64,000 nt of DNA from an uncultured Paracoccaceae bacterium (GTDB taxonomy: Bacteria; Pseudomonadota; Alphaproteobacteria; Rhodobacterales; Rhodobacteraceae). Each line of letters opens with the position of its first letter. The stretch's first letter is position 1. The notes beneath the pieces were generated by a model that saw only the letters and a program-made list of their open reading frames with translations, was not told the DNA's origin and made no database searches. The stretch spans positions 1-64,000 of the forward strand of contig CANLDA010000003.1 in NCBI GenBank assembly GCA_947489325.1, read 5' to 3'. The translations under genes and the position numbers were made by a program. Positions 2,618-33,012 of this stretch are shown here, one piece after another.

Positions 2618-3313
2618 TCAAGCCTTGCGCTCTTGCGGCAAGAAAACAAGGCTCAGAATCTGGCAACCGATCACCAAATTGTAACCCGCCAATGTAGAAC
2701 CCGCCGCAAATACCCCTGTATTTTCCACGAATGTTGCAGAAAACCGGCCGTGCGCCGGGTCAAGGCTGATGGCAATGCGCTCAAACCCGAACATCGCCTT
2801 GGTCAGCGGGTACTGGCACTTAAAGGCCGCCTCTTTTGCGCTGAAAATACGTTTGGCCAAAAGCGCGCTCTCTTGCGGGGAGTGTCCACGCAGCCATGCC
2901 TTTTCTTCCGGAAGGCACACAGTGTCCAACAAGGCAGGCGCCAGCGGCAAAGCGCCTTCTATATCGGTGCCGATGGCACGAAACTCTGCCGCATGCCCCA
3001 CAAGTGCGATGCAATGGTCCTGATCATGGGTGAGAGAGCCGACAATACCCTTTGGCCAGATGGGCGCGCGATCTGATCCCATAGGGATTTCAACGGCTGG
3101 ATGGTGCAGCCGCGCCAGGGCTTGTCGAATGGCGGTTCGTCCCAAGGCGAATTCACGTTGTCGTTCCGGCACGGCACGCGCGATGGCTTGGTTTTCAGCT
3201 GGCCATAAAGACGCGGGCGTTTCGGTTTTAGACACAACCGCAGAACAGACACCTTGCGGCAACAGACGCACTAGTGCCCCTTTCAGCGTTGCGTCCTGTG
3301 TCAAAATGCTCAT
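2618..3313 (-). CDS. 4'-phosphopantetheinyl transferase (Sfp/EntD superfamily)
   Basis: This 231-aa protein is predicted to transfer the phosphopantetheine arm of CoA to carrier-protein serines. The magnesium- and CoA-binding signatures are present: GTDIEGA around residue 118 and FSAKEAAFKCQYP about 45 residues later. The length fits the single-chain Sfp/EntD class. The ATG overlaps the stop codon of the NRPS gene in an ATGA junction, so translation is probably coupled. That makes it the likely activating enzyme for the ACP of the PKS and the PCP of the NRPS next door. The region between the two motifs has the arginine-rich N-terminal half usual in EntD-like members. Confidence 0.92.
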   Translation of the reverse strand: MSILTQDATLKGALVRLLPQGVCSAVVSKTETPASLWPAENQAIARAVPERQREFALGRTAIRQALARLHHPAVEIPMGSDRAPIWPKGIVGSLTHDQDHCIALVGHAAEFRAIGTDIEGALPLAPALLDTVCLPEEKAWLRGHSPQESALLAKRIFSAKEAAFKCQYPLTKAMFGFERIAISLDPAHGRFSATFVENTGVFAAGSTLAGYNLVIGCQILSLVFLPQERKA

Positions 3314-6300
3314 TGAGCCGCCTTATTTCGTTTCGCTCGCATAGCGCGCCGCTTGGCCATCGCGTCACTGCGACCTTGGGCGCGCCCGGTTGAGGGTGCG
3401 TTGCCGGACGGGGTGTCTGTCGCCCTGGGAGATGCCAACTTGCCCGCCCGCTTCTCAAGCTGGCTTGCCAGTTCATTGAGTACCGGAAAGCGGAAAATGT
3501 CGGTAATGCTGACCTTGGCGATGCCCAAGCCATCGCGAATTTCACGGTGCGCCTGAACGGCAAGCAGGGAATGCCCTCCGAGTTCAAAGAAATTGTCACG
3601 GCCAGAGACCTGAACCACCCCCAGAATACGTGACCATATAGCCCCGATCTGTTTGGCAAGATCGCCCGTTGAGGTTGCTTCCTCTGGCGCAGTTGTGGCC
3701 GGGGCGGGTTTGGCCATTTGCGGCGCAGGCAGGGCGTTTCGGTTGATTTTCTTGTTGGGGGTCAACGGAAAGCTGTCCAGCGTCACAATATGCGTTGGCA
3801 CCATAAAATCAGGCAAATCGCGTGACAGTGCAACGCGTAGTGCGGCACCTGCTGCGCCACCAGTCACATAGCCCACCAGACGCTGATCCCCTGGTTGATC
3901 TTCTCGCGTGATAACCACAGCCTGACTGACACCCGGTAGCGCCTCAAGCCGGGCCTCGATCTCGCCCAATTCAATCCGATAGCCGCGCAATTTGACCTGA
4001 TGGTCTGCGCGCCCAAGGAAATCAAGTCGCCCATCCCCGCGCCAGCGCACCAAATCGCCCGTGCGATACATACGACCCTGACCTGCGAAAGGATCATCTA
4101 GGAACCGTTCTGCTGTCATGGCCTCGCGCTGCCAATAACCACGCGTAACGCCTGCACCTGCGATCCACAGCTCGCCTGCCACACCAACGGCTACGGGCTG
4201 GTGCTGATCGTCCAAAACATAAAGGCGCGTGTTGGCGATGGGGGTGCCAAGGTCGGCAACGCTTGCAGAAGTCGTCACATCAACCTTGCCCGTGGTGGAC
4301 CAGATTGTGGTTTCCGTTGGGCCATACATGTTTTCGATGTGGGCATCGGTTGCGGTCTGCAATTCAATGGCCAAACTTGTCGGCAGGGCCTCTCCGCCAA
4401 TCATCACATGGCGCAAAATGCCCATGGAGGCACGGGCCGCATCATCACCAACCAACATTCGCGCCATGGACGGGGTGCATTGCAGGTGTGTCACCTTGTG
4501 GCGATGTATTTGGGCCGCAATGGAATAATCCCCCTCAGCGGGGCCCGCACCGGAATTGGCGCGTTGCAGCACCTCTGCTAAGGGCTTCAACCCCTCCAGA
4601 ACCACATCCGTATCAATGCCATAATCAATCAGGCAAGCGACCTCTGCCACACCAATAGATTTCAGTTCTTCAACCCGGGCAAGGCAGTCTTCGACCGTAC
4701 CAAACAGGCCCGAGTCCTCAAAGTATCGCAAGAATGCGAAATCAAGGATTTCCTCAAGCTCATCATCACTCAGGATACCAAGATCAAGCTGAAACGGGTT
4801 GTCGACACCTTTGGGTTTCTTAAAGGCAGGAAAGGCCCAAGCGTATTGCTTGATCAGCCCTGCCGCGCTGCGCAGATAGTTTTTCATCGGCTCGCGCGCT
4901 GTTTCACGCACCTCTTCGCGGTCATGGCCAACAAAGGTGTGCAACATCAACGTGACCTTGAAGTCCTTGGGATCATGACCCGCTTTGCGCAGCTCAGCGT
5001 GATAGAGGCCGATTTTCTCCTGCACCTCTGCAACGCTTTGCCCCAAAAGGTGCGTCAGGATATGAGCGCCGGCCTTGCCTGCGTCTTTCCACGTCTGCGG
5101 ATTGCCAGCAGTGGTGACCCACAGTTCCAATTCTTTGGAAACTGGGCGCGGCTGGGTGCGGGCGGCGAACATACTGCCATCCTTGCGCGCAAACTCCACC
5201 GCTTCGCCACGCCACAGCGCACGCAAGTCTTTCATCTGTTCAAACATCACTGTGCGGTTTTCTGGCGGTGTATGATCAGGCCACAGCACAAAGTCATCCG
5301 GCTGCCAACCCGACGCAATCGCAAGCCCAGCGCGGCCATTTGTCAGATTGTCAATTACAGCCCATTCTTCGGCAATACGCGCTGTATGGTGCAAAGGTGC
5401 GACGCAACTACCTGCACGAATGCCAATGTTATGAGTTACAGCCGCCGCCGCCGCGCCCGTAACCGACGGGTTTGGGTACGGCCCACCAAAAGCATGAAAA
5501 TGACGTTCAGGCGTCCAGACCGCACAAAATCCGTTCTGATCAGCAAATTTTGCGCCTTCCAGCAAGAGACGATATTTCCCCGACCCGGGGGCATCATCGT
5601 TGCCCCAGTAATAGATCGAAAACTCCATTCCTTGGGCAGAGTTGGCGACAAACCCGTTGGAAATCTGGCTCGCTTTGTCGTCCCCGGAAATCACCACCTT
5701 GAATCCACGCGCAAGTGTATAGAACAGCTCTAGCACGGAAATATCAAAGCTAAGGCTTGTAAGCGCCAGCCAAGTGCCTGCTGGATCATGTTGCACGCGC
5801 TCATCCATGCCTGCAAAGAAATTGGCAACGTTACGATGCTCTACCATCACGCCCTTTGGCACACCGGTAGAGCCAGAGGTATAAATCACATAGGCAAGAT
5901 CATTGCCTGTCACGCCGCTGTCAGGATTGGCATCAGGGCCATCTTGCACGTCGTCTATCACCAGAACCTGCGCGTTATGTGTGGGCAGGTCTGCCTGTAT
6001 TGCAGACTGCGTTACAATCACGCCTGCCTGACTGTCCTGAATATAATGCGCAAGCCGATCTTGTGGATAGGCCGGGTCCAGCGGCACATACGCACCGCCT
6101 GCCTTAAGAATACCCAAGACCCCGATCATCATGTCCAGCGACCGTGTGCAATACAGCCCAACAAGTGCGCCCGGCACCACGCCCATGGCTTGCAGTTGGT
6201 GACCAACACGGTTGGCGGCGCGGTTTAATTCATCATAACTCAGACTTTGGTCTTCATACACCACCGCCGTGGCCTCTGGTGTGCGCAGCACCTGCGCTTC

Positions 6301-7830
6301 AAACGCGGAATGCATCGGTACATCATCGAATGCGCAATCTGTTGCGTTCCAGAGATGCAGAAGCTCGTCTTGTTCCACCCCATCCAATAGAACAATCTCT
6401 CGCCCCTCTGACACACATCGCAAGGCGGCTTCAAACCGTGCAACAAGGCGTGTTGCATGCTGATCCTCAACACGTGCACGATCTAACACCATATGCAGAG
6501 TATCACCCAAAACGATGTTCACAGCGCTAACCGGAGTCACACCGACATCCAGCACTGCCAGATCAGGGCATGTCAGGTGGGGCAACTCGGCATCTCGCAA
6601 AGGCAAATCTACTGCAATAGCCCCTTTCTCGGCATACACTAGGGCCACGTCTGCCATGGCATCGCCCAATGGCACAGGCACCCAGTCGGTTAGGTATCCC
6701 GAAGCAACGGGCAAGGCGCCCGAGACATAGGCAAGAGAGCTGCCGATCTCACACCCACTGTTAAGTGCAAATCCGGCAAGGGCCTGCCATATTTGTGCAG
6801 AAGTCATGCCGTCAGGGCGCGCAATCGCATAGCGTTTGTAATTGGCATCTGACGCATCACCGATCAAAGGCAATTGTGCAGGCAGGAAATTGGCCAATTG
6901 TCCGCGCCAAAAGGCATCGTTCGAAGGTGGGATATCCGCACGCGCCGCGTCAACCTTGGTACCGACGCGCACCACATCAGATGCACGCAACGCTTTTCCA
7001 GACATGTCACGCAACCCGGACAAGCGCACAGCACCCTGCGCGCAGGCAATGGTCATATCCTCAGCCACCGCTACAACTGTGCCCGGCATGCCCCCGCCTT
7101 CGATATCGTCTGCGGCACCTACGGCAAAGACCTGTCCTGCGATTTCAATCTTGGCAAGGCCAACAGGGTTCCAATATTCGCCATGATCCAAGGCCCGTAT
7201 CAGGCGTGCGACATCCGCCGAATTGTCCGCAAAATCAAGCGGGGGAATAGGTTTGTTTCCGGCAAAATAGCTGCGCTGATTTAAGTCCTGAGGCGTGCCT
7301 GCGACGTCCTCGGACGTCAGCATGCCCAGCAGATCATCAAAGCTTTCGATTGCGGCCTCATAACAGCGGGTGTTCAGCGTAAGCGCGGTATCTTTGGGGC
7401 CAATATCAAACATACGCTGCACGAGGATATTGCCTGTATCCGCACGCGCCTGCATCAGATGCCATGTGATCCCGTGGTGACGTTCACCATGGATCAGCGC
7501 CCAGACAGGGGCATTCAGCCCGGCATAGTGCGGCAAAGGACCATCGTGGAAATTCACCGCGCCCTTTTGGGCCTGTTCCAACAAGGCTTGTGGCAACATA
7601 TCAAGGTTGGCGATACTCAATAGCCAATCAAAGCTAAGGGCACTGCACCGTGCCACCAAATCCTCATCGGCAGAGATAACCGGCACGTTTCGTGTTTGTG
7701 CCCAGTTGGAAATACCCTGACTGCGGGTGACAACGGCCACGATATCATGACCCGCCGTCAACGCGGCCTCTGCGCATTGGATCAAAAGGGATTCATTGCC
7801 GATCAAAAGCATCTTGAGTCTATCAGACAT
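3310..7830 (-). CDS. NRPS initiation module: formyltransferase / C-remnant / A(Gly) with inserted luciferase-like monooxygenase / PCP
   Basis: This 1506-aa protein carries a methionyl-tRNA-formyltransferase-like domain at 1-300 with the triad Asn93, His95 and Asp131 intact. About 190 residues at 305-500 resemble the back half of a condensation domain and lack HHxxxDG. An adenylation domain follows at 505-1370 (A3 TSGSTGVPKG at 651-660). It is split after A4 (SFDISVLEL, 694-702) by an FMN-dependent luciferase-like monooxygenase at about 733-1090. A5 (YGPTETT) resumes at 1169, and a PCP has Ser1421 in GGHSL. Code residues D696, I697, L700, Q1117, M1143, G1145, M1168, I1176, W1177 and K1361 read DILQMGMIWK, very close to the glycine code DILQLGLIWK. 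A basic tail ends the protein and there is no thioesterase. The start at 7830 was chosen over an upstream frame because GGAGG precedes it. It overlaps the glycosyltransferase gene by 8 bases. The inserted oxygenase belongs to the MupA/Atu3671-type natural-product group. Confidence 0.93.
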   Translation of the reverse strand: MSDRLKMLLIGNESLLIQCAEAALTAGHDIVAVVTRSQGISNWAQTRNVPVISADEDLVARCSALSFDWLLSIANLDMLPQALLEQAQKGAVNFHDGPLPHYAGLNAPVWALIHGERHHGITWHLMQARADTGNILVQRMFDIGPKDTALTLNTRCYEAAIESFDDLLGMLTSEDVAGTPQDLNQRSYFAGNKPIPPLDFADNSADVARLIRALDHGEYWNPVGLAKIEIAGQVFAVGAADDIEGGGMPGTVVAVAEDMTIACAQGAVRLSGLRDMSGKALRASDVVRVGTKVDAARADIPPSNDAFWRGQLANFLPAQLPLIGDASDANYKRYAIARPDGMTSAQIWQALAGFALNSGCEIGSSLAYVSGALPVASGYLTDWVPVPLGDAMADVALVYAEKGAIAVDLPLRDAELPHLTCPDLAVLDVGVTPVSAVNIVLGDTLHMVLDRARVEDQHATRLVARFEAALRCVSEGREIVLLDGVEQDELLHLWNATDCAFDDVPMHSAFEAQVLRTPEATAVVYEDQSLSYDELNRAANRVGHQLQAMGVVPGALVGLYCTRSLDMMIGVLGILKAGGAYVPLDPAYPQDRLAHYIQDSQAGVIVTQSAIQADLPTHNAQVLVIDDVQDGPDANPDSGVTGNDLAYVIYTSGSTGVPKGVMVEHRNVANFFAGMDERVQHDPAGTWLALTSLSFDISVLELFYTLARGFKVVISGDDKASQISNGFVANSAQGMEFSIYYWGNDDAPGSGKYRLLLEGAKFADQNGFCAVWTPERHFHAFGGPYPNPSVTGAAAAAVTHNIGIRAGSCVAPLHHTARIAEEWAVIDNLTNGRAGLAIASGWQPDDFVLWPDHTPPENRTVMFEQMKDLRALWRGEAVEFARKDGSMFAARTQPRPVSKELELWVTTAGNPQTWKDAGKAGAHILTHLLGQSVAEVQEKIGLYHAELRKAGHDPKDFKVTLMLHTFVGHDREEVRETAREPMKNYLRSAAGLIKQYAWAFPAFKKPKGVDNPFQLDLGILSDDELEEILDFAFLRYFEDSGLFGTVEDCLARVEELKSIGVAEVACLIDYGIDTDVVLEGLKPLAEVLQRANSGAGPAEGDYSIAAQIHRHKVTHLQCTPSMARMLVGDDAARASMGILRHVMIGGEALPTSLAIELQTATDAHIENMYGPTETTIWSTTGKVDVTTSASVADLGTPIANTRLYVLDDQHQPVAVGVAGELWIAGAGVTRGYWQREAMTAERFLDDPFAGQGRMYRTGDLVRWRGDGRLDFLGRADHQVKLRGYRIELGEIEARLEALPGVSQAVVITREDQPGDQRLVGYVTGGAAGAALRVALSRDLPDFMVPTHIVTLDSFPLTPNKKINRNALPAPQMAKPAPATTAPEEATSTGDLAKQIGAIWSRILGVVQVSGRDNFFELGGHSLLAVQAHREIRDGLGIAKVSITDIFRFPVLNELASQLEKRAGKLASPRATDTPSGNAPSTGRAQGRSDAMAKRRAMRAKRNKAAQ

Positions 7831-8830
7831 ACGTGTCCTCCTGCCTTGATATTTCAGGCACCTCGCGCGCCTTAGCGGCGCGTCCCCGTAACAGAATCCG
7901 GAAATCATGCATCACTAAATCACGCAAAAAGCGACGTGGGCCTGTCACTTTCTTACCCGTCAATGCCGCACGAACCCACGCCAAAACACCGCCTGCGACA
8001 TGTGCAAGGGTCGCGCCAATCGCATAAACCACCCCGTGGTTGCGCAAGAAATATTGCAGTCGAGAGTCTAGCCAGAACCCAGGGATACGGTCCCATTTGC
8101 GCATGCCGGTGGATACGGACCCCACGTGCAAGACACGGCTTTCGACTACATAATGAGTTTGCCAACCCGCGCGCGCACCGCGCAGGCACAGGTCGGTTTC
8201 CTCAAAATACAGAAAATAGGATTCATCAAAAAGCCCGATGTCTCGCAACATTGCGGTGCGCATCATCATACTGGCACCAGCTGCCCAATCCACCTGACAG
8301 GTTTTTGTGGGAATCGGCGGGGCAACAATGCTGTTTTTCAACAGGCGACTGATTGGTCCGAATTTGGCGGCACCTTCAAATTCGCCCGCTATGGTTGGGA
8401 AACGAAAGGATGAATGTACAGCCTCAACGCCATCTTCGTACAGCTGGCTACAAGCAAAGCCGCATTTGGGGTGGGCACGCATATGTTGCATCAAGACGGC
8501 AATCGCGCCCTGATCGACAAAGGCGTCAGAATTCAGGATCAGCACAAATTCCGGCACACCCTGTCCGCGCGCCATCTGTTGACCGATACCCAGACGAATG
8601 CCGAAATTATTGCCTGCACCAAACCCACCATTGTGCCCGGATTGCGCCACATGCACGCGGGTTTCGGACCAGTCTTGCGCAGACAGCTTGTCGAACGATC
8701 CATCCGCGCTGTCGTTGTCCACCACAACGATTTGTCCATTAATGCCCTCGGTTGCGCGCAGCGCAGCCTCTACGGCCTGCATGGTCATTGTGGGGGTGCG
8801 GTAATTCAAGATCACTGTCAAAAGGCTCAT
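7823..8830 (-). CDS. Family 2 glycosyltransferase (rhamnosyltransferase-like)
   Basis: This 335-aa GT-A fold enzyme opens with LLTVILNYRTP and VVVDNDSADGS, the nucleotide-sugar binding start of family 2. A DSD-like metal site (LNSDAFVD) lies near residue 98 and the acceptor-side motif YFLYFEETDLCLRGARAGW near 210. These resemble dTDP-rhamnose-using enzymes of the WcaA/RfbF kind. The ATG at 8830 is preceded by AGGAGG and overlaps the PKS stop in ATGA. Its 3' end overlaps the NRPS start by 8 bases. Its place between PKS and NRPS in a coupled unit suggests that it glycosylates their product, though it could act on the polysaccharide instead. The donor sugar is not determinable. Confidence 0.88.
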   Translation of the reverse strand: MSLLTVILNYRTPTMTMQAVEAALRATEGINGQIVVVDNDSADGSFDKLSAQDWSETRVHVAQSGHNGGFGAGNNFGIRLGIGQQMARGQGVPEFVLILNSDAFVDQGAIAVLMQHMRAHPKCGFACSQLYEDGVEAVHSSFRFPTIAGEFEGAAKFGPISRLLKNSIVAPPIPTKTCQVDWAAGASMMMRTAMLRDIGLFDESYFLYFEETDLCLRGARAGWQTHYVVESRVLHVGSVSTGMRKWDRIPGFWLDSRLQYFLRNHGVVYAIGATLAHVAGGVLAWVRAALTGKKVTGPRRFLRDLVMHDFRILLRGRAAKAREVPEISRQEDTYV

Positions 8831-11800
8831 TCTGCGGCCTCCTGCCATGCGTCTGTGATGTCTGCCTCGGCGGCCTCGATTACCCGTTTCATGCGTGTGG
8901 CCAGAACCCGCACATTCGGTTCCAGAACCATTGAATCATGATCCCCCGGTACCTCGGTCACGTGCACATTTGGCACCCATTGCCCCCAATCATTATCGGC
9001 AAAAACATAGGCACGTTGACGATCAACCCAGCGGTCGCCCCCAACCTGCCAATAACCATTCAGCGGTGGGCGGAACAATTCAAGCCGGCCGTCCCAGCCA
9101 TGCATATCATAGGCTTCAACAGCAGACAGGAACGCAGCCTCGATCTCAGCATTATGAAAGTGCGGGGTTTCTTCGGCTTTGGAGTGATCTTGCGCGCGGC
9201 GTTTGGAAATTTCCCAAGCGATCCGACTTTTCAGCCATAGCATTGGATACAGCGGCCCACGACGCTTCAGTTCGATCAATTGCATCCACATCCGATCCCC
9301 AAACCTCAGCGGACGGCGTTGTGGCAAAGGCGTATCCAGCAAGATCACAATCGCCACTGTGTCGCCTGCAGCTTCCAACTGACGCGCGATTTCATAGGCG
9401 GTGATCCCCCCGCCAGAAAACCCGCCAAGAAAGTACGGGCCCTTGGGTTGCACCGTTTTCATTTCACGAATGTAATCCGTCGCCGCCTCGCGCAAATCTC
9501 TGTGCGGCGGGGCATCGCCAAACAACCCACGCGCCTGAAGCCCATAAAACGGTCGGTCCGCGCCAAGAAGATGCGCGAGATGGCGCAAGTTCAGAACATT
9601 GCCAAACATACCCGCCACAAGGAAAAACGGCGCTTTGCGCCCGCCTTCGCCATTATGCATTGGGACCAGATGGGTAAAGCGGCGCAGCGGTACGACGCCT
9701 GAATCCGTCGAGGCGTCACTGGTGTCTTGTGGGCCAATACGGTTTTCGATCAAACCCGCACATTGCGCAATTGTCGGGGCCTCAAACAGCACCGAAATGG
9801 GGAATTCCACCGCCCATGTCTTTTTCACCATGGAAAACAGGCGCACCGCGACCAACGAATGCCCGCCCAGATCAAAAAAGCTGTCGTTTGTGCCAACATC
9901 CTGCACGCCCAACAGATCTTGCCAGAATCCGGCAAGGGTGCGCTCTATATCGGTTTGTGGGGCCACAAAATCATTATCCAGATCGGGTCTTTCAAAGGTT
10001 TGGCCGCGATCGATTTCGTCCAGCTCTCCTGCCTGATCAATCAATGCATTCAAATCCATTGACGACACGATAATCTGCGAGGCTTTTGCCGCCAGAGCGC
10101 GGCCAAACATTTCCGCGCCTTCATCGGGGCGAATGCCCTGTTGCAGGTTGTGACGCAAGCGTTCCTCGGCGGGGGTGATGGCATCAGTGGGGGCTTCGAT
10201 AAAGCGAACATCCTGCGCGCGAACAGGGGCACTTGCCGAAACGCCCAGTGCATCTTGCATGCGTTTCAGGGTCAACCCACGCACTTGCACGCAAACTTGT
10301 CCCGCCTCATTCAAAACATCTACGTCAAAGCGAGCAACGCCCTGTGTGTCACTGCCAGACACCAATCGCACCCAACTGACAACCTGCGACGGCAGGTCGT
10401 GATATACCCGGATAGCCCCATAAGATAATGGCACCCACAGCGCTTGTTGCGCATAACCATCAATCAGATCCATCGCCCAACCTGTGGCAATATCCATCAT
10501 CCCCGGATGCAGTGCCATACCGTCATCGACAAAGGCATTGTCCAGTGACAGCTCTGCCAACCCCTCGCCCTTTCCAAAACGCACGGCGCGCAACACTTTC
10601 CAGCGGGGACCAAAGGCAAGATGCGCCTCTTGTGGGGCGGACAGAGCATCGGTGCCACGGGTTTCTTCGCCACATCGGCCTGCCACCTGAGCCGTTAAAA
10701 TATCTTGCGCCGCAGGCATGGTGCCCAAAGCAACAGAGGCTTCGGCATGCAACATTTCGGCCTGACGCCCCTCGACCATAACCCGGCTTACGATTTGCAC
10801 GTCATACCCGATTGCTGCACGTATCAGGCGCACACGAATGTCCTGCGAGACTCCATCAGAAACCACCAAGGGACGCAGGAATATCAGGTCTCGAATTTCA
10901 TAGGGTTTCTGTTCGCCATGTGCCCGCAAGGCCTGCGCGATCAATTCGATATATCCCGTACCGGGCCAAATCGCAGTGCCATCCAGCATGCGGTGTTGAT
11001 CCAGAACCCAGCATTCCTGATTGATATGGGCCGCAAAGACCCGGTGTCCCTGTCCATCATACCCACCTTGGGTCAAAATAGGGGTTTCAATCGGGGCAAG
11101 GCGCTCTTTCGCAGATGCAGGTGCGAGGGCCTCTGCCGCCATACCAACGCCGTTCCAGATACCCCAGTTCAACGCCAGAACACGGGTTTTATCCTGTGCG
11201 CGGCTTTCGGCATACGCATTCAAAAAGGCATTGGCCGCGACGTAATCCACCTGCCCCGCCGGCGCGATGGCAGTGGACGAAGACGCAAACAGTGCCAGCC
11301 AATCCAATGTGCCATCAGGGAACAACGCATCAATCACCTGCGTGCCGTGCAATTTGGGGGCCATAACGTCTTCGACTGAGGCAGAGTTTTTCGACAAAAG
11401 CGGCGCATCATCCACAACGCCTGCGGCATGAATTACACCGTGAATGTCACCCTGTTTTGCCTGAACATCACGCACGACTCCTTGCATCTCTTCCAGATTA
11501 CTGACGTCTGCGGATTTAACGATAACTTGACCACCCAGCGCTTCAAGCCGCTCGATGGTGGCAATTCTGTCAGCAAATCGCGGATTAAGACGCGCCTCAT
11601 TCCACTGTGTACGCGCCGGAAGCGGGGTCCGCCCGACCAGAACAATGCAGCCCGCCCCTTGTTGCAGCAGTGACTGCGCCAACGTCACGCCGATGCCGCC
11701 AAATCCTCCGGTGATCAGATAGGTGCCACCAGCCCGTATATCCGCACCTTGCTCAGGCAACGCATTGGGCCGATAAATCCGCTCAAACCGCTTTGCACCG

Positions 11801-14800
11801 CGCAATGCGGCCACGCGATTTTCAGGTTGGGCGATGATTTCTTCAAGCACGGCATCCACTAAATCTGCCTGCCCCGACACAACGTCCAACAACCCTGCGG
11901 TCACCTGCGGCAATTCACGCGGCGCAACCTGAAGCGGGCCCAGCACCGTTGCCTTTTCTGGGTACGCCAGCCCTTCGCTACGCACCTGTACTGCACCGGA
12001 ACTGATGCAGGACACATGCACGGGCCTTGGGAGGTTTTCATCCGTAATCGCCTGCATCAAAAACAGGATCGAGTGCAGTCCTTGTTCAAGGTTACGATGG
12101 AAAAATGAACTGCCCGGGCGCGCACCTTCGTCTTGCGTTAACAGCCACATGTGCACGATCCGGCTGGGTGCACGTCCGTTGACAATCAGATCAGATATCA
12201 GTTGGTCATATCCTTCACGACCACGCTCTGGGGCCAGAACATAGTGATCCGGTGACAACCGTGCAAAGGCATCACCTGTGTCCACCTCAACCACCCCATG
12301 ACCTGCCGTGCGCAGGCGTTCGGCGACCTTTGCTCCCGTTCCGGCGGCATCGCGAAAGATCAACCAGCTTTCGGTTGGCAGCAGTGACAACTCAGTTTGC
12401 ACATCAATGTCACATTGCGCCAAGGTCGGACGCCACGCCGGACGATATCCCCAGGATGCCATGTCATCTGTGCGCAAAAGTTCGGTATCTTCTGCGACCG
12501 CTTTGCCCGGTTCAATAAAGTATGGTGCGCGCTGGAAGGCATAGGATGGCAACACAACGCGATTGCGACGCGCCTCTCCCCAGATTTGGGCCCAATCAAT
12601 GCTAGCGTTACAAGCCCACAGGCGCGCCAAGACAGTCATGAACCAAATGTCATCGGCCACATCTTCGTCCATATGCCGCAACAAGTTGATCACATGTCCC
12701 GCGCCAATATTCGGCTGCATCCGCGCCAGAACGCACAGGGTTTTGCCTGGGCCAACTTCAAGATAAACGCGATTTTTCTCGGCCGAAAGCGTTTCCATAC
12801 AGTCACCAAACCGCACGGTGTGGCGCAAGTGGGTCACCCAATACTCTGGGCTTGTGGCCTCTTCATCTGTCAGAGGTTGCCCGGTGCGATTTGAGATGAT
12901 CTGCACCTTTGGCACGGCCAGTGTAATTCCAGATAGATAAGCCCTGAATTCATCCAAAACAGGGTCCAACATAGCAGAATGTGCCGCAATATTAATTGGA
13001 ACGCGCTGACATTCGATGTCTTGTGCCGCAAGGGTTGCGGCCAAGTCGTCCAATATAGCATCAGCCCCAGAAACGACTGTCAGCATAGGAGCATTCACCG
13101 AGGCAATGTCCACATCTTCACCGATCAGGGCCTCGACTTCGGCCACAGGCAAGGGGATGCTCAGCATTCCGCCTGCAGGCACGCTGTCCATCAATTGTCC
13201 ACGCAACAGCACGAGGCCGATGCAATCCTCAAACGACATCACGCCCGCCAGACAGGCCGCCGTGTTTTCCCCCATGGAGTGACCCACAAGCGCGGATGGC
13301 ATCACATCCCAGCTTTGCATCAACTGTGCCAATGCATATTCCGCGATCATGATCAGCGGAAGCTGTAGCGAGGGCTGTTTTAGCTGCTCTGCCGCGCCGT
13401 CAACCTGCCCCAACCATAAGGCACGCACGTCATAGCTGACCTGTGCCTGTAAATGGTCCAATCCGCGGTCCATCCATTCTTGGAAAACCGGTTCTGTTTC
13501 ATAGAGACCTTGCGCCATGCCGGCGTATTGTGCGCCGCCACCGGGGAACATGAACACAACTTCGGCCGCATCCGGGGTGGCGTCATGGGCAAACACGCGC
13601 CCTGTCTCTGCCCTGTCCAGCAATTGCGCGGCCTCGGTTGCGTTGTGTGCCACCACAACGCGGCGTTTTTCAAAGGCGCGGCGCCCCTCCTTCAAGGTCC
13701 ATGCAACATCGGCCAAGTTTTGTTCGGGATTGGTACGCAAATGCGTCACTAATGCTGCGGTATTTGCATCCAATGCCTTTTTCGTACGCCCCGAAATGAC
13801 AAGCGGCTGAAAGGGCCAATCGCTTTCGTCGCTTGATACGCGTTCGGGTGCCTCTTGTACCACCACATGCGCATTTGTGCCGCCTACGCCCAATGAATTC
13901 ACCCCGGCCCGGCGCGCGCCCTGTCGTTGTGGCCAATCAGTCAGACGGTCATTCACCACAAAGGGGCTGTTTTCAAAATCAATGGTTGGATTAGGGGCCT
14001 CATAGCCCAGACTTGGCGGCATCTGTTGATGATGCAACGCAAGCGAGGTTTTGATCAGACTGGCGGCCCCGGCTGCTGTATCCAGATGCCCGATGTTTGT
14101 TTTGACCGACCCGATACGGCAAAATCCGCTGTCCGCCACATCGCCGAATGCTTCCGTCAGGGCAGCCACCTCGATCGGGTCGCCCAGATATGTGCCTGTG
14201 CCATGGCATTCGATGTAATCCACGGAATGCGGCTCTATTCCAGCCATTTCCTGCGCTTCTGAAATGGCCGCGGCCTGACCGCCAACACTGGGCGCCAAAT
14301 ATCCAGCCTTATCCGCGCCGTCGTTATTGATCGCGGATCCACGAATGACGGCCCAGATGTGATCGCCGTCCGCTATTGCGTCATCCAAGCGACGTAGGAC
14401 TACAACTCCGGCACCGCTGCCAAAAACCGTGCCTTCAGCGCGATGGTCAAAGGCGTGGCAATGACCGTCCGGGGACAGAATTTCCCCATCGCGATATGTA
14501 TATCCCCGACCATGAGGCAACTCAATCGTAACGCCGCCTGCCAGCGCCATATCGCATTCACCGGTCAGCAGCGACTGACAGGCGTAATGCACAGCCACAA
14601 GCGACGTGGAACAGGCCGTTTGAATATTGACGCTTGGCCCCTTGAGATCAAGAAAATGGCTAAGGCGCGTACTCAGGAAATCCTTGTCATTGCCTGTGTG
14701 GCGCAGCAGGAACATGCCCGTATTTTTGACGAGATCAGGATTGGAACACACATTGAAATAGAAATAGCTGCCCATACCGCACCCGGCATAAACCCCAATC

Positions 14801-15168
14801 GGCCCGCCAAAGTTTTCAGGCATGTGACCGGCGTTTTCCAAGGCCTCCCAGCTGACTTCTAGAAATTGGCGATGTTGGGGGTCCATAATGGCCGCTTCTT
14901 TGGGACTAAGACCAAAAAACTCAGCATCAAAACGCTCAAACCCCTTCAATTTTGCCGCAGCGGGGACATAATTGGGTTGGCGAATTCGGGCACGGCTTTC
15001 GCCTACGGCAAGCAATTCTTCTTCGCTTAGGCGTTCAATTGATTCTACACCATCGCGCAGGTTTTCCCAAAATTCGGCAACAGACTCCGCCCCCGGCAAA
15101 TGCGCGGCCATCCCAACGATAGCGACATCATTGTCGGACCAATCCAGTTTATCTGCACCTTTCGTCAT
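8827..15168 (-). CDS. Type I modular polyketide synthase, KS-AT-KR-DH-ACP-TE
   Basis: This 2113-aa protein contains one extension module. The ketosynthase at 13-435 has Cys186 in TACSTS, His322 and His361. The acyltransferase at about 538-830 has Ser631 in GHSMGE and a IAAH motif at 727-730, which leans towards malonyl-CoA but is not decisive. The ketoreductase has a structural half at about 930-1120, a catalytic half at 1147-1345 (TGGFGGIG) and Lys1272 and Tyr1309. The residues VDD at 1252-1254 lie where B-type enzymes have LDD. The dehydratase at about 1375-1635 has His1392 and Asp1559. The ACP has Ser1771 in GGHSL, and the thioesterase has Ser1918 in GFSGG and a late GDHDSM. The KR precedes the DH, the reverse of the usual order. 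The thioesterase implies that this protein releases the final chain. No strong ribosome site precedes 15168, but the reading frame and first domain fit. Confidence 0.95.
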   Translation of the reverse strand: MTKGADKLDWSDNDVAIVGMAAHLPGAESVAEFWENLRDGVESIERLSEEELLAVGESRARIRQPNYVPAAAKLKGFERFDAEFFGLSPKEAAIMDPQHRQFLEVSWEALENAGHMPENFGGPIGVYAGCGMGSYFYFNVCSNPDLVKNTGMFLLRHTGNDKDFLSTRLSHFLDLKGPSVNIQTACSTSLVAVHYACQSLLTGECDMALAGGVTIELPHGRGYTYRDGEILSPDGHCHAFDHRAEGTVFGSGAGVVVLRRLDDAIADGDHIWAVIRGSAINNDGADKAGYLAPSVGGQAAAISEAQEMAGIEPHSVDYIECHGTGTYLGDPIEVAALTEAFGDVADSGFCRIGSVKTNIGHLDTAAGAASLIKTSLALHHQQMPPSLGYEAPNPTIDFENSPFVVNDRLTDWPQRQGARRAGVNSLGVGGTNAHVVVQEAPERVSSDESDWPFQPLVISGRTKKALDANTAALVTHLRTNPEQNLADVAWTLKEGRRAFEKRRVVVAHNATEAAQLLDRAETGRVFAHDATPDAAEVVFMFPGGGAQYAGMAQGLYETEPVFQEWMDRGLDHLQAQVSYDVRALWLGQVDGAAEQLKQPSLQLPLIMIAEYALAQLMQSWDVMPSALVGHSMGENTAACLAGVMSFEDCIGLVLLRGQLMDSVPAGGMLSIPLPVAEVEALIGEDVDIASVNAPMLTVVSGADAILDDLAATLAAQDIECQRVPINIAAHSAMLDPVLDEFRAYLSGITLAVPKVQIISNRTGQPLTDEEATSPEYWVTHLRHTVRFGDCMETLSAEKNRVYLEVGPGKTLCVLARMQPNIGAGHVINLLRHMDEDVADDIWFMTVLARLWACNASIDWAQIWGEARRNRVVLPSYAFQRAPYFIEPGKAVAEDTELLRTDDMASWGYRPAWRPTLAQCDIDVQTELSLLPTESWLIFRDAAGTGAKVAERLRTAGHGVVEVDTGDAFARLSPDHYVLAPERGREGYDQLISDLIVNGRAPSRIVHMWLLTQDEGARPGSSFFHRNLEQGLHSILFLMQAITDENLPRPVHVSCISSGAVQVRSEGLAYPEKATVLGPLQVAPRELPQVTAGLLDVVSGQADLVDAVLEEIIAQPENRVAALRGAKRFERIYRPNALPEQGADIRAGGTYLITGGFGGIGVTLAQSLLQQGAGCIVLVGRTPLPARTQWNEARLNPRFADRIATIERLEALGGQVIVKSADVSNLEEMQGVVRDVQAKQGDIHGVIHAAGVVDDAPLLSKNSASVEDVMAPKLHGTQVIDALFPDGTLDWLALFASSSTAIAPAGQVDYVAANAFLNAYAESRAQDKTRVLALNWGIWNGVGMAAEALAPASAKERLAPIETPILTQGGYDGQGHRVFAAHINQECWVLDQHRMLDGTAIWPGTGYIELIAQALRAHGEQKPYEIRDLIFLRPLVVSDGVSQDIRVRLIRAAIGYDVQIVSRVMVEGRQAEMLHAEASVALGTMPAAQDILTAQVAGRCGEETRGTDALSAPQEAHLAFGPRWKVLRAVRFGKGEGLAELSLDNAFVDDGMALHPGMMDIATGWAMDLIDGYAQQALWVPLSYGAIRVYHDLPSQVVSWVRLVSGSDTQGVARFDVDVLNEAGQVCVQVRGLTLKRMQDALGVSASAPVRAQDVRFIEAPTDAITPAEERLRHNLQQGIRPDEGAEMFGRALAAKASQIIVSSMDLNALIDQAGELDEIDRGQTFERPDLDNDFVAPQTDIERTLAGFWQDLLGVQDVGTNDSFFDLGGHSLVAVRLFSMVKKTWAVEFPISVLFEAPTIAQCAGLIENRIGPQDTSDASTDSGVVPLRRFTHLVPMHNGEGGRKAPFFLVAGMFGNVLNLRHLAHLLGADRPFYGLQARGLFGDAPPHRDLREAATDYIREMKTVQPKGPYFLGGFSGGGITAYEIARQLEAAGDTVAIVILLDTPLPQRRPLRFGDRMWMQLIELKRRGPLYPMLWLKSRIAWEISKRRAQDHSKAEETPHFHNAEIEAAFLSAVEAYDMHGWDGRLELFRPPLNGYWQVGGDRWVDRQRAYVFADNDWGQWVPNVHVTEVPGDHDSMVLEPNVRVLATRMKRVIEAAEADITDAWQEAAE

Positions 15169-15276
15169 ATAAATTGCTCACATTCAACCAAACCCAGTTT
15201 ATTCGCAAACACGCGAAGGCCATGGGCTATTCATCACCAAACTGTATTTTGGAACCTTCGCCTTTTGTTGAAACTA

Positions 15277-16644
15277 TCAAGGCGAATTCAAGGCACTTAG
15301 TGCCAGAACGGCATCAGCGTTCATCCAAAAGGCAAATCCGGCAAGCCCCAGACCTAGCACAAGAAATACCGCATCATGCAGCGCATCCCAAGTGCCCTGT
15401 TGTCGCGCTAGCCAGACCACCACGGGATAGGCCAGCACATAGGCCACGCCCTGACCAATAAGCGCCCCGATCAAGCCCCAGTATTGCGCGCCAATCACCA
15501 AAGCCGCCAGAGTCAGCGCCGCACGCGTTGCGGCCAGCACAAAGAATTGTCGGGAATTGCCTGCCGCTAGTGCAGCCTGATCATAGGTCAGTGCAATCAC
15601 ATGGGGCACTTGCATGGCTGCAACGACCACCACAACACCGCCCGCAAGCGCATACCGTGGATCATAAAGCGTCGTCACCAACCACGCCCCAACCAGCGCA
15701 AAGAGACCCAGCAGTGCCAAAATCAATAAGCTGAGCGCAACCCGCATGCGCTGCAATTTTCGATAATTTTCGGGTGCATCTTTTGGGGGCAACTCGCGAT
15801 AGATCGGGATCAACGTTTTGCGCACAACCATACCACCCAACAGCATCGGAAAGCTGGCAAGGAAGTAACCGATATTATAAATGCCCAGCGCCTCTAACGT
15901 CAGATACTTGCCAAGGATAACCTTGTCGCCTTGGGACAACAAAAATCCAGCCACAGTGCTGAGAAACACCCATTTACCAAAATGGATCAACTCATGTGCC
16001 GCTGCTTTTTCCCAGCGAAACCTGTTGCGCGCGCCGGGCAAATACGCATCATACAACCAAAGCTGAATGGACGCGCTGACCAGCCCGCTGAGGGCCAGCG
16101 CCCAGACCGACTGCAACCACCACGCCAACAGCACCGCCGCGATGATACCACTGATTTGTGTGATGACATCAATCGCTGTCACCCGCCCCAGCATCAAGTG
16201 GCGGTTGGCGGTTTCAAGGCGCGTGGGATTAAACCCTGTGATGACCAAGGATAGCCCGGCAACGGGCAACAGTTGCGCCAATTGCGGGGCGTCGTAAAAC
16301 CATGCGGCAGGCATCGCCAAGGCGCATGTTCCCAGCCACAACAACACCCCGCGCCAAACTTGTATTGTCCACGCGGTATCCAGGAAACCCGGATCATCGC
16401 CGCGTTTGCTTTGCATGATAGATGGGCCGACGCCAACGTCCGAAAACATCGCCAACCCCATCATAAACACCCCAACAAGGGCCATCATGCCAAAGGCCTC
16501 TGGGAACAGCAGTCGCGTGAGGATCAAATTAGAGGCCAGTCGCAGCGCCTGCGAAGTGGCATAGCCCCCCAATGTCAGTGCCGAACTGCGCATCACACGA
16601 TCACGCAGGCCGTCGCCGCGCAGAAACATCGCAAGGCGGCTCAT
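15277..16644 (-). CDS. Wzx-like oligosaccharide or lipid-linked-product flippase
   Basis: This 455-aa integral membrane protein of the MOP/polysaccharide-transport superfamily flips lipid-linked glycans across the inner membrane. The sequence shows about 12 hydrophobic segments. Its N-terminus, ALTLGGYATSQALRLASNLI followed by LTRLLFPEAFGMMALV, is typical of lipopolysaccharide-biosynthesis flippases of the WzxC/RfbX kind. The frame extends upstream to 16659, but the ATG at 16644 has GGAG at the right distance and overlaps the preceding glycosyltransferase stop in ATGA. The PKS gene starts 108 bases downstream on the same strand. The substrate could be the polysaccharide repeat, the PKS-NRPS product, or a conjugate of both. 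Confidence 0.88.
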   Translation of the reverse strand: MSRLAMFLRGDGLRDRVMRSSALTLGGYATSQALRLASNLILTRLLFPEAFGMMALVGVFMMGLAMFSDVGVGPSIMQSKRGDDPGFLDTAWTIQVWRGVLLWLGTCALAMPAAWFYDAPQLAQLLPVAGLSLVITGFNPTRLETANRHLMLGRVTAIDVITQISGIIAAVLLAWWLQSVWALALSGLVSASIQLWLYDAYLPGARNRFRWEKAAAHELIHFGKWVFLSTVAGFLLSQGDKVILGKYLTLEALGIYNIGYFLASFPMLLGGMVVRKTLIPIYRELPPKDAPENYRKLQRMRVALSLLILALLGLFALVGAWLVTTLYDPRYALAGGVVVVVAAMQVPHVIALTYDQAALAAGNSRQFFVLAATRAALTLAALVIGAQYWGLIGALIGQGVAYVLAYPVVVWLARQQGTWDALHDAVFLVLGLGLAGFAFWMNADAVLALSALNSP

Positions 16645-17462
16645 CTTCCGCGTCTCCATTCATCGCCCCGTCCGGGGCCAAGACGCACTGCAAGGGCCAC
16701 CGATGCATAGGCCGCAAATCCCATTGGATCGCGTAACGCCAATCGTAATGCACCCAGTATCCCAAGGGGTTGCTTGTCATCATTGGTCAGAAGTTCTGGG
16801 AACCAGTCAGATATTTCTACCACCCCTCTGTCCTGCCGCCGACGTACACGCACCAGTTTCGAAAAGCCTTCAACAACGGGCCATTCATAAGAGGCCTGAA
16901 CCTTCAGTCGTTCACGTGACGCGAATTGAAGGCGTGCAAATGTGTCATCGGAGATAATGGCAGGCCAATCGCCCCAACGATCGCGCCCTGCCGCATTCAC
17001 TGCAAAAACACCTGCGCCCGGCACACCCTTGGCCATAAATGGCACCTGCGCCCAAATACGAGCATAGGCACGGCTGAACGCGGTTTGGGCGGTCATCTTC
17101 AAATGACCGCTGGCATAGGTTGGCGCTTTCGTGGACAGGCACTGATAAAGCTGCGCCAATAGGGCAGAATCCACAACAACATCCGCATCCAGATAAACCC
17201 GTGCGGTACCTTGCGCCGCCATATCTCCGGCATTCAGAGCATTGGCCTTGCCACCCTCTGTCAGATCAAGCAACACAAACCGCCAACCTCGTGCACCAAT
17301 CCTATGACGAAAGCTATTCGCAACGGCAACAGTGTCATCCTCACAGCCATTCGCGACGATAATCACCTCAGCGCGCTCTGGTCCATCCGAACGCAAAACC
17401 GCCTCAAGGCAGGATCCAATCCACGCCTCTTCGTTGCTGGCTGGGATAATAATGCTCAGCAC
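16641..17462 (-). CDS. Family 2 glycosyltransferase
   Basis: The first residues LSIIIPASNEEAWIGSCLEA and VIIVANGCEDDT are the classical family 2 opening. DADVVVD near residue 100 is the metal-binding DxD. ISDDTFARLQF near 190 is the catalytic-base region. The frame can be opened at a TTG (17489) with no ribosome site. GTG at 17462, nine bases after AAGGAAGGG, puts the start directly at the conserved beta strand and is preferred, giving 273 aa. It overlaps the flippase start by ATGA and leads the transcript. The product probably adds a sugar to a lipid-linked intermediate at the cytoplasmic face. Confidence 0.85.
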   Translation of the reverse strand: MLSIIIPASNEEAWIGSCLEAVLRSDGPERAEVIIVANGCEDDTVAVANSFRHRIGARGWRFVLLDLTEGGKANALNAGDMAAQGTARVYLDADVVVDSALLAQLYQCLSTKAPTYASGHLKMTAQTAFSRAYARIWAQVPFMAKGVPGAGVFAVNAAGRDRWGDWPAIISDDTFARLQFASRERLKVQASYEWPVVEGFSKLVRVRRRQDRGVVEISDWFPELLTNDDKQPLGILGALRLALRDPMGFAAYASVALAVRLGPGRGDEWRRGR

Positions 17463-17578
17463 TCGTTGTTGCCCTTCCTTATGATCCAAAAATGGTCACG
17501 TCTGCGCCCCAAACATGTTAGACACCTGTATAAGATCAAGTTTCACATAGATTTCTAAGTACGAGCAAGGCCTGCCAC
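17463..17578. promoter_or_regulatory. Divergent promoter region between two glycosyltransferase genes
   Basis: These 116 bases separate outward-reading genes and must contain or overlap promoters for both the long minus-strand biosynthetic unit and the plus-strand family 4 glycosyltransferase. The part around 17515-17565 is AT-rich. I could not assign -35 and -10 boxes with confidence. Confidence 0.4.
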
Positions 17579-18778
17579 GTGACCCGACACTTTAATATCG
17601 GTTATTTAATACCGCAGTTTCCGGGGCAGACCCATATTTTCTTTTGGCGCGAGCTGGAGGCACTGGCGCAATTGGGCGTTACCGCGCAAATATTTTCCAC
17701 ACGCCCCCCCCCGGCAGGCCTCATTTCGCATGATTGGTCTGAGGAAGCGATTGGGCGCACAAAATACCTTGGTCGCATTCGCCCCCTACGTGCCTTACAC
17801 ACATTATTGCGGATTTCGCCACGGATTTGGCTACGTGATGTGATGCGAGAACCTGCATTGATCAAAGATCTTTTGATTTGTCTTGCGGCAGCAGATCAAT
17901 TGGTGCGCAATTGTCAGGAACAGGATATTGATCATGTTCATGTCCATTCTTGCGGACGCGCGGCCTTAATAGCAGCCCTTGCGCATCACTTGTCTGGGCT
18001 AACCTATTCTCTGACGTTGCATGGACCGATGTCTGATTACGGCATCGGCCAGAGGCTCAAATGGCGGAATGCGGCCTTTGGTATTGTGATCACCCGCAAG
18101 CTGATGAGCGAATTGCCTGATCAGTTAGCATCAGATCGACCAGAACGCATCTTGGTGCAGGGCATGGGCGTAGATACCAATGTCTTGAAACGCAACACCC
18201 CGTATGACCCGCCCTTGCCCGGCGATCCGATACGCCTGTTTTCTTGCGGACGTTTAAACATCGTCAAAGGACATCAAGATTTGATGCAAGCCGTTAAAAT
18301 CTTGCGCGATCAAGGCCGAAATGTGCGTCTTGAAATCGCGGGCGAAGATGATGAGGGAGGCACCGGGTTTCATCATGACTTACTTCAAGTCCGCGCCGAT
18401 CTTGGCCTCGAAGAACATGTCACCTTGCTAGGGGCAATTAGTGCCGAGGCCGTGCGAGACAAGCTATGGTCTGCCCATATCTTTGCATTGGCCAGTTGGC
18501 ACGAGCCGCTTGGCGTTGCCTATATGGAGGCCATGGCCTGCGGGATCCCCGTGATCGCCACGAATTCCGGTGGCGTGCCTGAATTGATCACCGATGGGGA
18601 AAACGGCCTGATGGTACCACCCCAAAATCCCACAGCATTGGCAGAGGCCATTCAGCGCATTTGCGAAGATCCTGATCTTGCCCGGCGTCTTGGGCAGAAT
18701 GGACGCAAATATGCGGAAGAAAACTGCCGCTCTTCTCAAGCGGCAGAGGTTTTGCGTGACGAAATTGCCCTGCTGTAG
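17579..18778 (+). CDS. Family 4 glycosyltransferase (EpsE-like)
   Basis: This 399-aa GT-B fold enzyme has an N-terminal acceptor domain beginning IGYLIPQFPGQTHIFFWREL. Its C-terminal donor domain contains LFSCGRLNIVKGH and the retaining EX7E-type region HEPLGVAYMEAMACGIPVIA. NSGGVPELITDGENGLMVPP follows, which is typical of family 4. It begins with GTG at 17579, with AAGG ten bases upstream. It is the only plus-strand gene in the first 30 kb and converges on the RTX glycosidase-like gene seven bases beyond its stop. It probably adds one sugar to the polysaccharide repeat. Confidence 0.88.
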   Translation: MTRHFNIGYLIPQFPGQTHIFFWRELEALAQLGVTAQIFSTRPPPAGLISHDWSEEAIGRTKYLGRIRPLRALHTLLRISPRIWLRDVMREPALIKDLLICLAAADQLVRNCQEQDIDHVHVHSCGRAALIAALAHHLSGLTYSLTLHGPMSDYGIGQRLKWRNAAFGIVITRKLMSELPDQLASDRPERILVQGMGVDTNVLKRNTPYDPPLPGDPIRLFSCGRLNIVKGHQDLMQAVKILRDQGRNVRLEIAGEDDEGGTGFHHDLLQVRADLGLEEHVTLLGAISAEAVRDKLWSAHIFALASWHEPLGVAYMEAMACGIPVIATNSGGVPELITDGENGLMVPPQNPTALAEAIQRICEDPDLARRLGQNGRKYAEENCRSSQAAEVLRDEIALL

Positions 18779-21659: not shown

Positions 21660-21739
21660 TCTTGGACTCCAATTGTAAGCCAAGGCCCAACGCAGGGCCT
21701 GCGTCAAAGATATTGGCTAATAGGTCGTTGGCAAGTTCG

Positions 21740-24016: not shown

Positions 24017-24816
24017 CCGGCATCCTCTTGTTTTTGTACAAATCTGCACGCGCGTTCCATGTCGGCAATGCCGCTGTCAGAACTTAGACCATTGCGGTCA
24101 AACCAGAACAGCACATCCCGGATCACCACATCACCCAACGTTTTCACAATGCCTTTGCGATGACTGCGACAGGCCATGAACACATCTGACGCCCCCAACA
24201 TCGAGGTCGCCAACTCCATGCTGGGGCCGATGTGCTGCACTGATGGGCTAAACCCTTCATGCCCTACACAGGCACTGAGGTAAATATTCCCCTGCGAATA
24301 CCCAAATGCCACCCAACATCCTGGTGCAGGCGTGGGCATGCGCAGGTCAATGGTTTCGCTTTGATCCTGTAAAATCAATGTGCCCTCTTTTTCATGGAGG
24401 AACAGGTAATTTTTATGATCATGTGGATTCACGGAAATCAATGTGCGCGCGTTTGCATGAGGGGTTTGTATTCGGCAAGCAAAGCTGAAATGCGCCGCAT
24501 CTATCAAAGCGTTTTCAACGGCCAAGCCGCAATTCACACCAGCCTGCGCCAGCAATCCACCCCCTTGAGAAAATCGCGCGTGCCCCTCATTGGGAGTTGC
24601 TGGTTTGGCCTTGGTTCCAACTTTATTCTCGGCAGGCCATGCTGTGATCACCCCATCGGTATGCGTGAGTGATGTGCCACGATACCAGATAGCCTCACAT
24701 TCATTCGGATGGCTTGCAGGGCCGATCCATTCAACGTTTTGTTGGGACGGTGGCGTATCACGCAACAGAACCGCCTCTGGCACCTCGATATCCACGACAT
24801 AGGGGGCGTCTGTCAT
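24013..24816 (-). CDS. Unrecognised 267-aa protein, possibly a LamG/concanavalin-like beta-sandwich
   Basis: I do not recognise a family with confidence. The protein has no signal peptide or membrane segment. The stretch ALIDAAHFSFACRIQTP, then KNYLFLHEKEGTLILQD, then GCWVAFGYSQGNIYLSACVG resembles the strand pattern of laminin-G/pentraxin domains that bind sugars (exposure statement, ligand, then display strands). It overlaps the upstream 479-aa gene by one base (TGATG) and the sulfatase by ATGA, so the three are almost certainly translated together. A glycan-binding or assembly partner of the sulfatase is a guess. Confidence 0.6.
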   Translation of the reverse strand: MTDAPYVVDIEVPEAVLLRDTPPSQQNVEWIGPASHPNECEAIWYRGTSLTHTDGVITAWPAENKVGTKAKPATPNEGHARFSQGGGLLAQAGVNCGLAVENALIDAAHFSFACRIQTPHANARTLISVNPHDHKNYLFLHEKEGTLILQDQSETIDLRMPTPAPGCWVAFGYSQGNIYLSACVGHEGFSPSVQHIGPSMELATSMLGASDVFMACRSHRKGIVKTLGDVVIRDVLFWFDRNGLSSDSGIADMERACRFVQKQEDAG

Positions 24817-26255: not shown

Positions 26256-26286
26256 GATGTCGCCCCTTTACATGTGCCGACATGTT

Positions 26287-27210: not shown

Positions 27211-27216
27211 TAATGT

Positions 27217-28966: not shown

Positions 28967-28987
28967 TTCGCGACCTCCCAAGGTCTT

Positions 28988-32815: not shown

Positions 32816-33012
32816 TTCGCCTCCTGAGTGATGTGCGGGCACCATTGGCGCCACACCGGCTTGTCGTTTATGTCGTCAAATAAATCATAGACTGAAAAAG
32901 ATATGTATCAAAAGCCCTTGAACACCTGCGCGACTCCTTTTATAGACCGCCCCACTGGCGCGGATTTCCGCGCTCCTTTTCGTGAGGGGCATGGTGTTTA
33001 CGTCGGTTTCAT

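Follow-up and report, generated by a model that had tools for sequence, protein, structure and literature searches.

Why should an assembly line made of a type I polyketide synthase (PKS) and a nonribosomal peptide synthetase (NRPS) lie in the middle of a polysaccharide locus? The question is raised by contig CANLDA010000003.1 of an uncultured Paracoccaceae bacterium (assembly GCA_947489325.1), whose first 64,000 nucleotides are the whole stretch analysed here, hereafter the window. On its minus strand a PKS (8827-15168), a GT2 glycosyltransferase (7823-8830), an "NRPS" (3310-7830) and an Sfp-type phosphopantetheinyl transferase (PPTase, 2618-3313) follow one another between a Wzx flippase and a Wzz protein. 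PKS-NRPS lines are usually read as makers of free natural products. We propose instead, with a probability of roughly 55%, that this two-protein line supplies one Wzx-dependent polysaccharide with a small acyl group derived from glycine, and that the terminal thioesterase (TE) passes this group to the lipid-linked repeat unit.

Linkage of the PKS-NRPS core to one Wzx pathway

The company kept by the core was followed in 80 loci, obtained by scanning one genome per species, with neighbourhood profiles built from the proteins of the window and of plasmid records; Wzx, the sugar transferase, Wzz, Wzc, Wza, Wzy-like proteins and CpsF served as polysaccharide markers. Of the 43 alphaproteobacterial loci that span 20 kb or more, 41 have at least one marker and 38 at least two, while none was found in 20 random windows taken from the relatives' genomes and from the bacterium's own. 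Two genomes of the family that initially appeared devoid of markers have full loci lying just past the cut. The plasmid records themselves, from Ruegeria, Parasedimentitalea, Paracoccus, Aminobacter and Shinella, carry the PKS-NRPS pair in annotated polysaccharide loci, and Wzy-like, Wza and Wzc genes occur in the loci of relatives.

The first-pass annotation had set as a check the presence of the same six-gene order in other Roseobacter genomes. The order GT2-Wzx-PKS-GT-NRPS-PPTase-Wzz (GT standing for glycosyltransferase) is found again in L029, L037 (Roseovarius marisflavi), L046 and L064 among others. This recurrence goes far beyond chance, and since the same order stands in many genera an assembly artefact was likewise rejected. 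Rhodobacterales mostly have the PKS, the GT and the NRPS in line. Many Hyphomicrobiales have PKS and NRPS in divergent orientation but still inside polysaccharide loci, which indicates that no single ancestral operon is needed to account for the link. The NRPS and PKS distances are correlated over 54 loci (r 0.93).

The association with the flippase was further examined in 296 genomes of the family, one per genus. The NRPS occurs in 103 of them and a Wzx match (E <=1e-60) in 107, and 96 have the two together (P 8e-56). With the identity threshold set at 48%, the Wzx is restricted to 96 genomes, all of which have the core (96/96), and is absent from the 189 core-less ones (P 6e-66); the core is counted here in 107 genomes, including those where it is revealed by its ACP-TE part. 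These P values are a guide only, as shared ancestry is ignored and the 48% line was drawn after the list had been seen. In G034 and G079 the Wzx and the NRPS share a contig but are 1.5-1.9 Mb apart. The GT placed between PKS and NRPS behaves similarly: of 61 genomes, 14 have an ortholog of it at 50% identity or more, and these are the 14 that have the Wzx ortholog; in most Rhodobacterales loci it adjoins the PKS-NRPS. By contrast the sugar transferase, taken as a control, is generic, with 54-60% identity in core-less genomes (G001, G006, G007, G010, G019 and G035). We also considered that the line could be a variable decoration on an otherwise PKS-less polysaccharide locus, and rejected it: the four genomes that seemed to have only the Wzx (at 48% or more) carry PKS/NRPS variants or copies cut by contig ends. 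Altogether, these data strongly support, for Alphaproteobacteria, the functional coupling to a Wzx polysaccharide pathway that had been suggested from the window alone.

An initiation module of glycine type

The label "NRPS" given at first to the protein at 3310-7830 needs to be refined. It does have an adenylation (A) domain and a peptidyl carrier protein (PCP) domain, but it has neither a full condensation (C) domain nor a TE, and is really an initiation module: a formyltransferase (FT), the C-terminal lobe of a condensation domain, an A domain split by a luciferase-like monooxygenase of the MupA/Atu3671 type (MOX), and a PCP, as read from Pfam, NCBIfam, profiles and a structural model. The FT has the complete two-part formyltransferase fold; the nearest structure to its model is the FT of ArnA (Z 27.8, rmsd 2.2 over 283 residues), and by sequence it stands closer to two sugar N-formyltransferases, ArnA and WbkC (E 2e-21), than to LgrA (E 4e-8). 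Its catalytic N, H and D, and the serine of the PCP, are kept in all 69 NRPSs in which catalytic residues were counted. The half condensation domain, about 200 residues (325-532) between FT and A, was missed by Pfam in the window protein and was detected by a profile of 48 sequences, which aligns it with residues 201-471 of McyB (E 1.2e-17), and by a model. The fold list for FT and half-C modelled together reached the FT part only, so that the lobe was modelled separately: with a pLDDT of 92, its listed fold matches are all of condensation type (top Z 13-14.5). The FT stands in place of the lobe that would be expected to bear the HHxxxDG motif.

The monooxygenase, at residues 763-1113, scores 470 bits against TIGR04020 (cut-off 244) and is inserted after the A4 motif and before the next residue of the specificity code; its nearest match is PuwE (6ket, E 1e-97). 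The code itself, read by hand from the motifs, is DILQMGMIWK, and DILQ[M/F/L]GMIWK across the 69 homologs. Four MOX-containing glycine domains all have the code DILQLGMIWK (PMC12283262), which the window protein matches at nine positions of ten, and alpha-hydroxyglycine has been assigned to a MOX-containing glycine module (PMC10204066). From its sequence the A domain thus appears to be of glycine type, and the embedded MOX is predicted to hydroxylate the alpha-carbon of glycyl-PCP.

The PKS and the order of the line

The PKS has the domains KS-AT-KR-DH-ACP-TE, assigned by domain matches and catalytic residues, without enoyl reductase (ER). Over the 57 PKSs compared, KS C/H/H, AT S/H, KR Y/N, DH H/D and the ACP serine are invariant; so are the TE aspartate and histidine, the TE nucleophile being serine in 55 and cysteine in two. 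The glycine-type loading module with its FT is a nearly constant partner of this PKS. That the NRPS comes first is deduced from the N-terminal position of the FT, from the TE at the end of the PKS, and from L078, L027, L092 and L165, where the MOX module directly precedes a KS-AT-KR-DH protein.

The following route may be drawn. The PPTase would arm both carrier domains and the A domain would load glycine on the PCP, where the formyltransferase would N-formylate it and the embedded monooxygenase would hydroxylate its alpha-carbon. The PKS would then add a single malonate and process it by KR and DH, leaving a 4-formamido(-4-hydroxy)but-2-enoyl chain on the ACP. The TE would hand this chain over to one of the sugars in the repeat unit carried on undecaprenyl, and the decorated unit would be flipped by the cognate Wzx for polymerisation. 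The expected product is a C4 amino acid unit built from glycine and one malonate, N-formylated, and possibly hydroxylated on the former glycine alpha-carbon and dehydrated.

Natural variants of the line

Two genomes of the family carry altered lines in loci of the usual order. In G109 (L156) MOX and DH are missing and the KR lacks S, Y and N, the sites being intact in FT, A (code DILQLGLIWK), PCP, KS, AT, ACP and TE. The erosion is far deeper in G121 (L154, 8193-18515). MOX is again missing, and active sites are replaced in KS (C/H/H to D/Q/D), AT (S/H to G/T), KR (Y/N to R/D), DH (H to Y), FT (N/H/D to A/R/A) and PCP (S to W); the glycine code of the A domain, the ACP serine and the TE triad are retained. 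Mean identities to the family set follow the same division: 0.61-0.63 for A (normally 0.66-0.67), 0.71 for ACP (0.77) and 0.55 for TE (0.65), against 0.48 for the dead KS (0.79), 0.32 for AT (0.73) and 0.34 for PCP (0.65). The dead domains nevertheless stay in long open frames, with a single stop between KR and DH. G121 seems to have a line trimmed down to glycine activation, a carrier and a TE. With a TE able only to hydrolyse, such a line would be a futile glycine cycle, which argues for a TE that transfers to an acceptor. Together with the Wzx pattern, this remnant makes us favour transfer by the TE to the glycan precursor: the product, first supposed to decorate a glycan or glycolipid or to be carried on undecaprenyl phosphate, may well be attached to the glycan rather than merely made alongside.

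Several observations weigh against this proposal. Apart from the TE, no acyltransferase is constantly present in the loci, and in 11 of the 107 core genomes no Wzx reaches 48% identity to this one. The G121 evidence comes from a single genome, where the stop codon lies in frame and divides the PKS, and where loading of the ACP by the A domain would have to take place in trans. Outside Alphaproteobacteria, Anaerolineae (L063, L076) and a planctomycete (L095) have both core proteins but no polysaccharide genes with them, and a divergent form (L027, L092, G168) also lies outside polysaccharide loci. No markers were detected in Ramlibacter (L085, L086) and Myxococcales (L077) with profiles that were seeded from Alphaproteobacteria and so under-annotate distant phyla, the context of L085 being poorly resolved with several frames without match. 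A core found regularly apart from polysaccharide genes had been named beforehand as the observation to fear: it is encountered in some Chloroflexi and Planctomycetes, and probably in Ramlibacter and a Myxococcales, while the link survives in Alphaproteobacteria. The core is consequently not intrinsically a polysaccharide enzyme.

As to the divergent form (L027, L092 and L165, the latter from G168), it gives no match to the half-C profile and its PKS protein bears a further A-PCP(-TE).

Other possible fates of the product

The best surviving alternative, which we nevertheless hold to be improbable, is a free secreted small molecule (a signal, chelator or antibiotic) sharing regulation and inheritance with the polysaccharide and using the flippase at most for its export. 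A TE could indeed hydrolyse, and the Chloroflexi and planctomycete pairs show that the core can live without polysaccharide genes. In the Anaerolineae loci the neighbours of the core include aminotransferases of class III, an aldehyde dehydrogenase and polyamine/GABA-type ABC importers, a setting that would fit a GABA-like product. Against a free molecule, no dedicated exporter, receptor or resistance gene is seen among the window genes scanned, the 96/96 co-occurrence with Wzx holds also where the two are unlinked, and G121, with A, ACP and TE alone intact, could yield only glycine.

Slightly less probable again is that the surface is decorated, but by another way than the TE acting on the lipid-linked unit, the acyl group being placed on a sugar nucleotide, a surface protein or a lipid. 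The kinship of the FT domain with ArnA and WbkC would suit this, and so would the SGNH-like and other possible surface-modifying enzymes that recur in the locus; on the other hand the confinement of the Wzx to core-bearing genomes points to the flipping of a substrate already decorated.

RkpA/WcbR-type PKSs of capsule loci are proposed makers of a lipid anchor or acceptor chain, and an iterative PKS could build a longer acyl chain in their manner, but this is the least plausible of the three: the PKS nearly always has a dedicated glycine-type loading module with formyltransferase as partner, the lack of ER precludes a saturated chain, the locus is of Wzx/Wzz type with a sugar-phosphate initiating enzyme, and the reduced G121 variant could not make any chain.

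Relation to known systems

The A module with embedded flavin monooxygenase recalls the MOX-glycine modules of myxothiazol, melithiazol and solanimycin (SolF), with DILQLGMIWK there and DILQMGMIWK here; theirs end or extend a line, whereas the window module, preceded by an FT and a half condensation domain, starts it. With LgrA of linear gramicidin it shares a formyltransferase fused N-terminally to an A-PCP initiation module, with the same N, H and D residues; it differs by an FT nearer to ArnA/WbkC and by the condensation C-lobe, so that the FT does not directly precede A. PuwE-type (TIGR04020) monooxygenases are the nearest to the embedded domain, but PuwE, whose predicted reaction is the 2-hydroxylation of an acyl chain bound to a carrier, does its work after a PKS module and not from within a glycine-type A domain. 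RkpA and WcbR resemble the present PKS as mono-modular type I enzymes of surface-polysaccharide loci; compared by their description, which places them in rkp/wcb capsule clusters (PMC3908369), they differ in that no NRPS partner is described there. Finally, the locus has the initiating sugar transferase, Wzx, Wzz and glycosyltransferases of Wzx-dependent exopolysaccharide loci, from which it departs by the embedded PKS-NRPS pair and PPTase, always found with this Wzx in the sampled family. Searches of open-licence papers gave no description of the locus, nor of an FT-halfC-A-MOX-PCP protein with polysaccharide genes, which is weak evidence of novelty since subscription papers lie outside their range.

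Anatomy and surroundings of the locus

Every family assignment of the locus proteins is borne out by Pfam and NCBIfam: PF17837 (E 6e-25) and PF01648 for the PPTase, PF00535/PF13641 for the GT at 7823-8830. The overlaps reported by the first-pass annotation are real when checked on the sequence: ATGA between PKS and GT (GT start at 8830), eight nucleotides between GT and NRPS, ATGA between NRPS and PPTase. The NRPS start is placed at 7830, with AGGAGG in front; the longest open reading frame, from 7908, was rejected as too long. Upstream, as noticed at first, a GT2 (16641-17489, PF00535, E 3e-18) and the Wzx/MOP-type flippase (15277-16644, PF13440, E 2e-50) are on the same strand. A further ATGA (16644) joins these two, but the 108-nucleotide gap between Wzx and PKS rules out translational coupling at that step. 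Downstream, still on the minus strand and as initially described, come the Wzz/GNVR-type chain-length determinant (1229-2497; PF02706, E 8e-8, with a partial match to TIGR03007) and the short-form Bac_transf sugar transferase, an undecaprenyl-phosphate hexose-1-phosphate transferase (75-740; PF02397, E 8e-56); Wzx and an initiating phosphoglycosyltransferase are thus both in the window locus. The contig stops at window position 1, and the remainder of the locus beyond it is missing from this assembly stretch. The bacterium's own genome, in which the contig is cut at this point, gives no match to Wzy_C; Wzy-like genes adjoin the PKS in relatives. In the same genome the PPTase is the sole one of Sfp type, the other match being an AcpS-like frame of 145 amino acids.

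On the other side, a GT4 glycosyltransferase of the EpsE family (17579-18778; NF041876, 594 bits for a cut-off of 400) belongs to the same locus on the plus strand. It is followed on the minus strand by a probably secreted protein (18786-21707), whose N-terminal domain is SGNH-like (profile A1, E 5.6e-24 at 20781-21611) and whose C-terminal part has an RTX repeat (PF00353), then by a sulfatase with RTX repeats (21740-24049); both are likely extracellular modifiers of the same polymer. The SGNH-like family, whose window copy was missed by the first profile and caught by one of 16 sequences, is found again in about 20 related loci. Further on stand a run of minus-strand genes (24013-28981), four of them without Pfam match, and beside it a sulfotransferase-like gene, a methyltransferase and a GT90 protein (to 30859). 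An N-formylglutamate amidohydrolase-like gene lies on the same strand at 31952-32854; nothing ties it to the locus.

In the relatives, the Paracoccus marcusii polysaccharide locus has a second NRPS (C-A-PCP-TE; L024, 686-4564). Neorhizobium-type loci (L050-L052, L058, L070, L090, L098) have near 21-23 kb a free-standing AMP-ligase-like protein, which may serve to activate a further amino-acyl or acyl group. In L140 (G009) PKS and NRPS are split into several frames, by decay or sequencing errors, in a locus otherwise normal.

Meaning for the family

In about 100 genomes of the family, i.e. about a third of the genera sampled, a PKS-NRPS line is bound up with a polysaccharide exporter, and the core has relatives in several phyla. 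We tentatively suggest, at somewhat less than even odds, a new class of glycan-modification machinery: a hybrid NRPS-PKS whose TE would act as a glycan acyltransferase, placing an N-formyl glycine-derived group, possibly alpha-hydroxylated and cross-linkable, on lipid-linked units that would be flipped by a dedicated Wzx and no other, and reducible in evolution to plain glycyl transfer. The three natural versions (full; without MOX, KR and DH; A-ACP-TE only) give a direct way of testing the function by mass difference. Should the product sit on the polymer, genome mining would be misinterpreting an entire group of clusters, and these bacteria would bear a surface polymer with an unusual amino-acyl group, which could matter for adhesion, metal binding or host contact.

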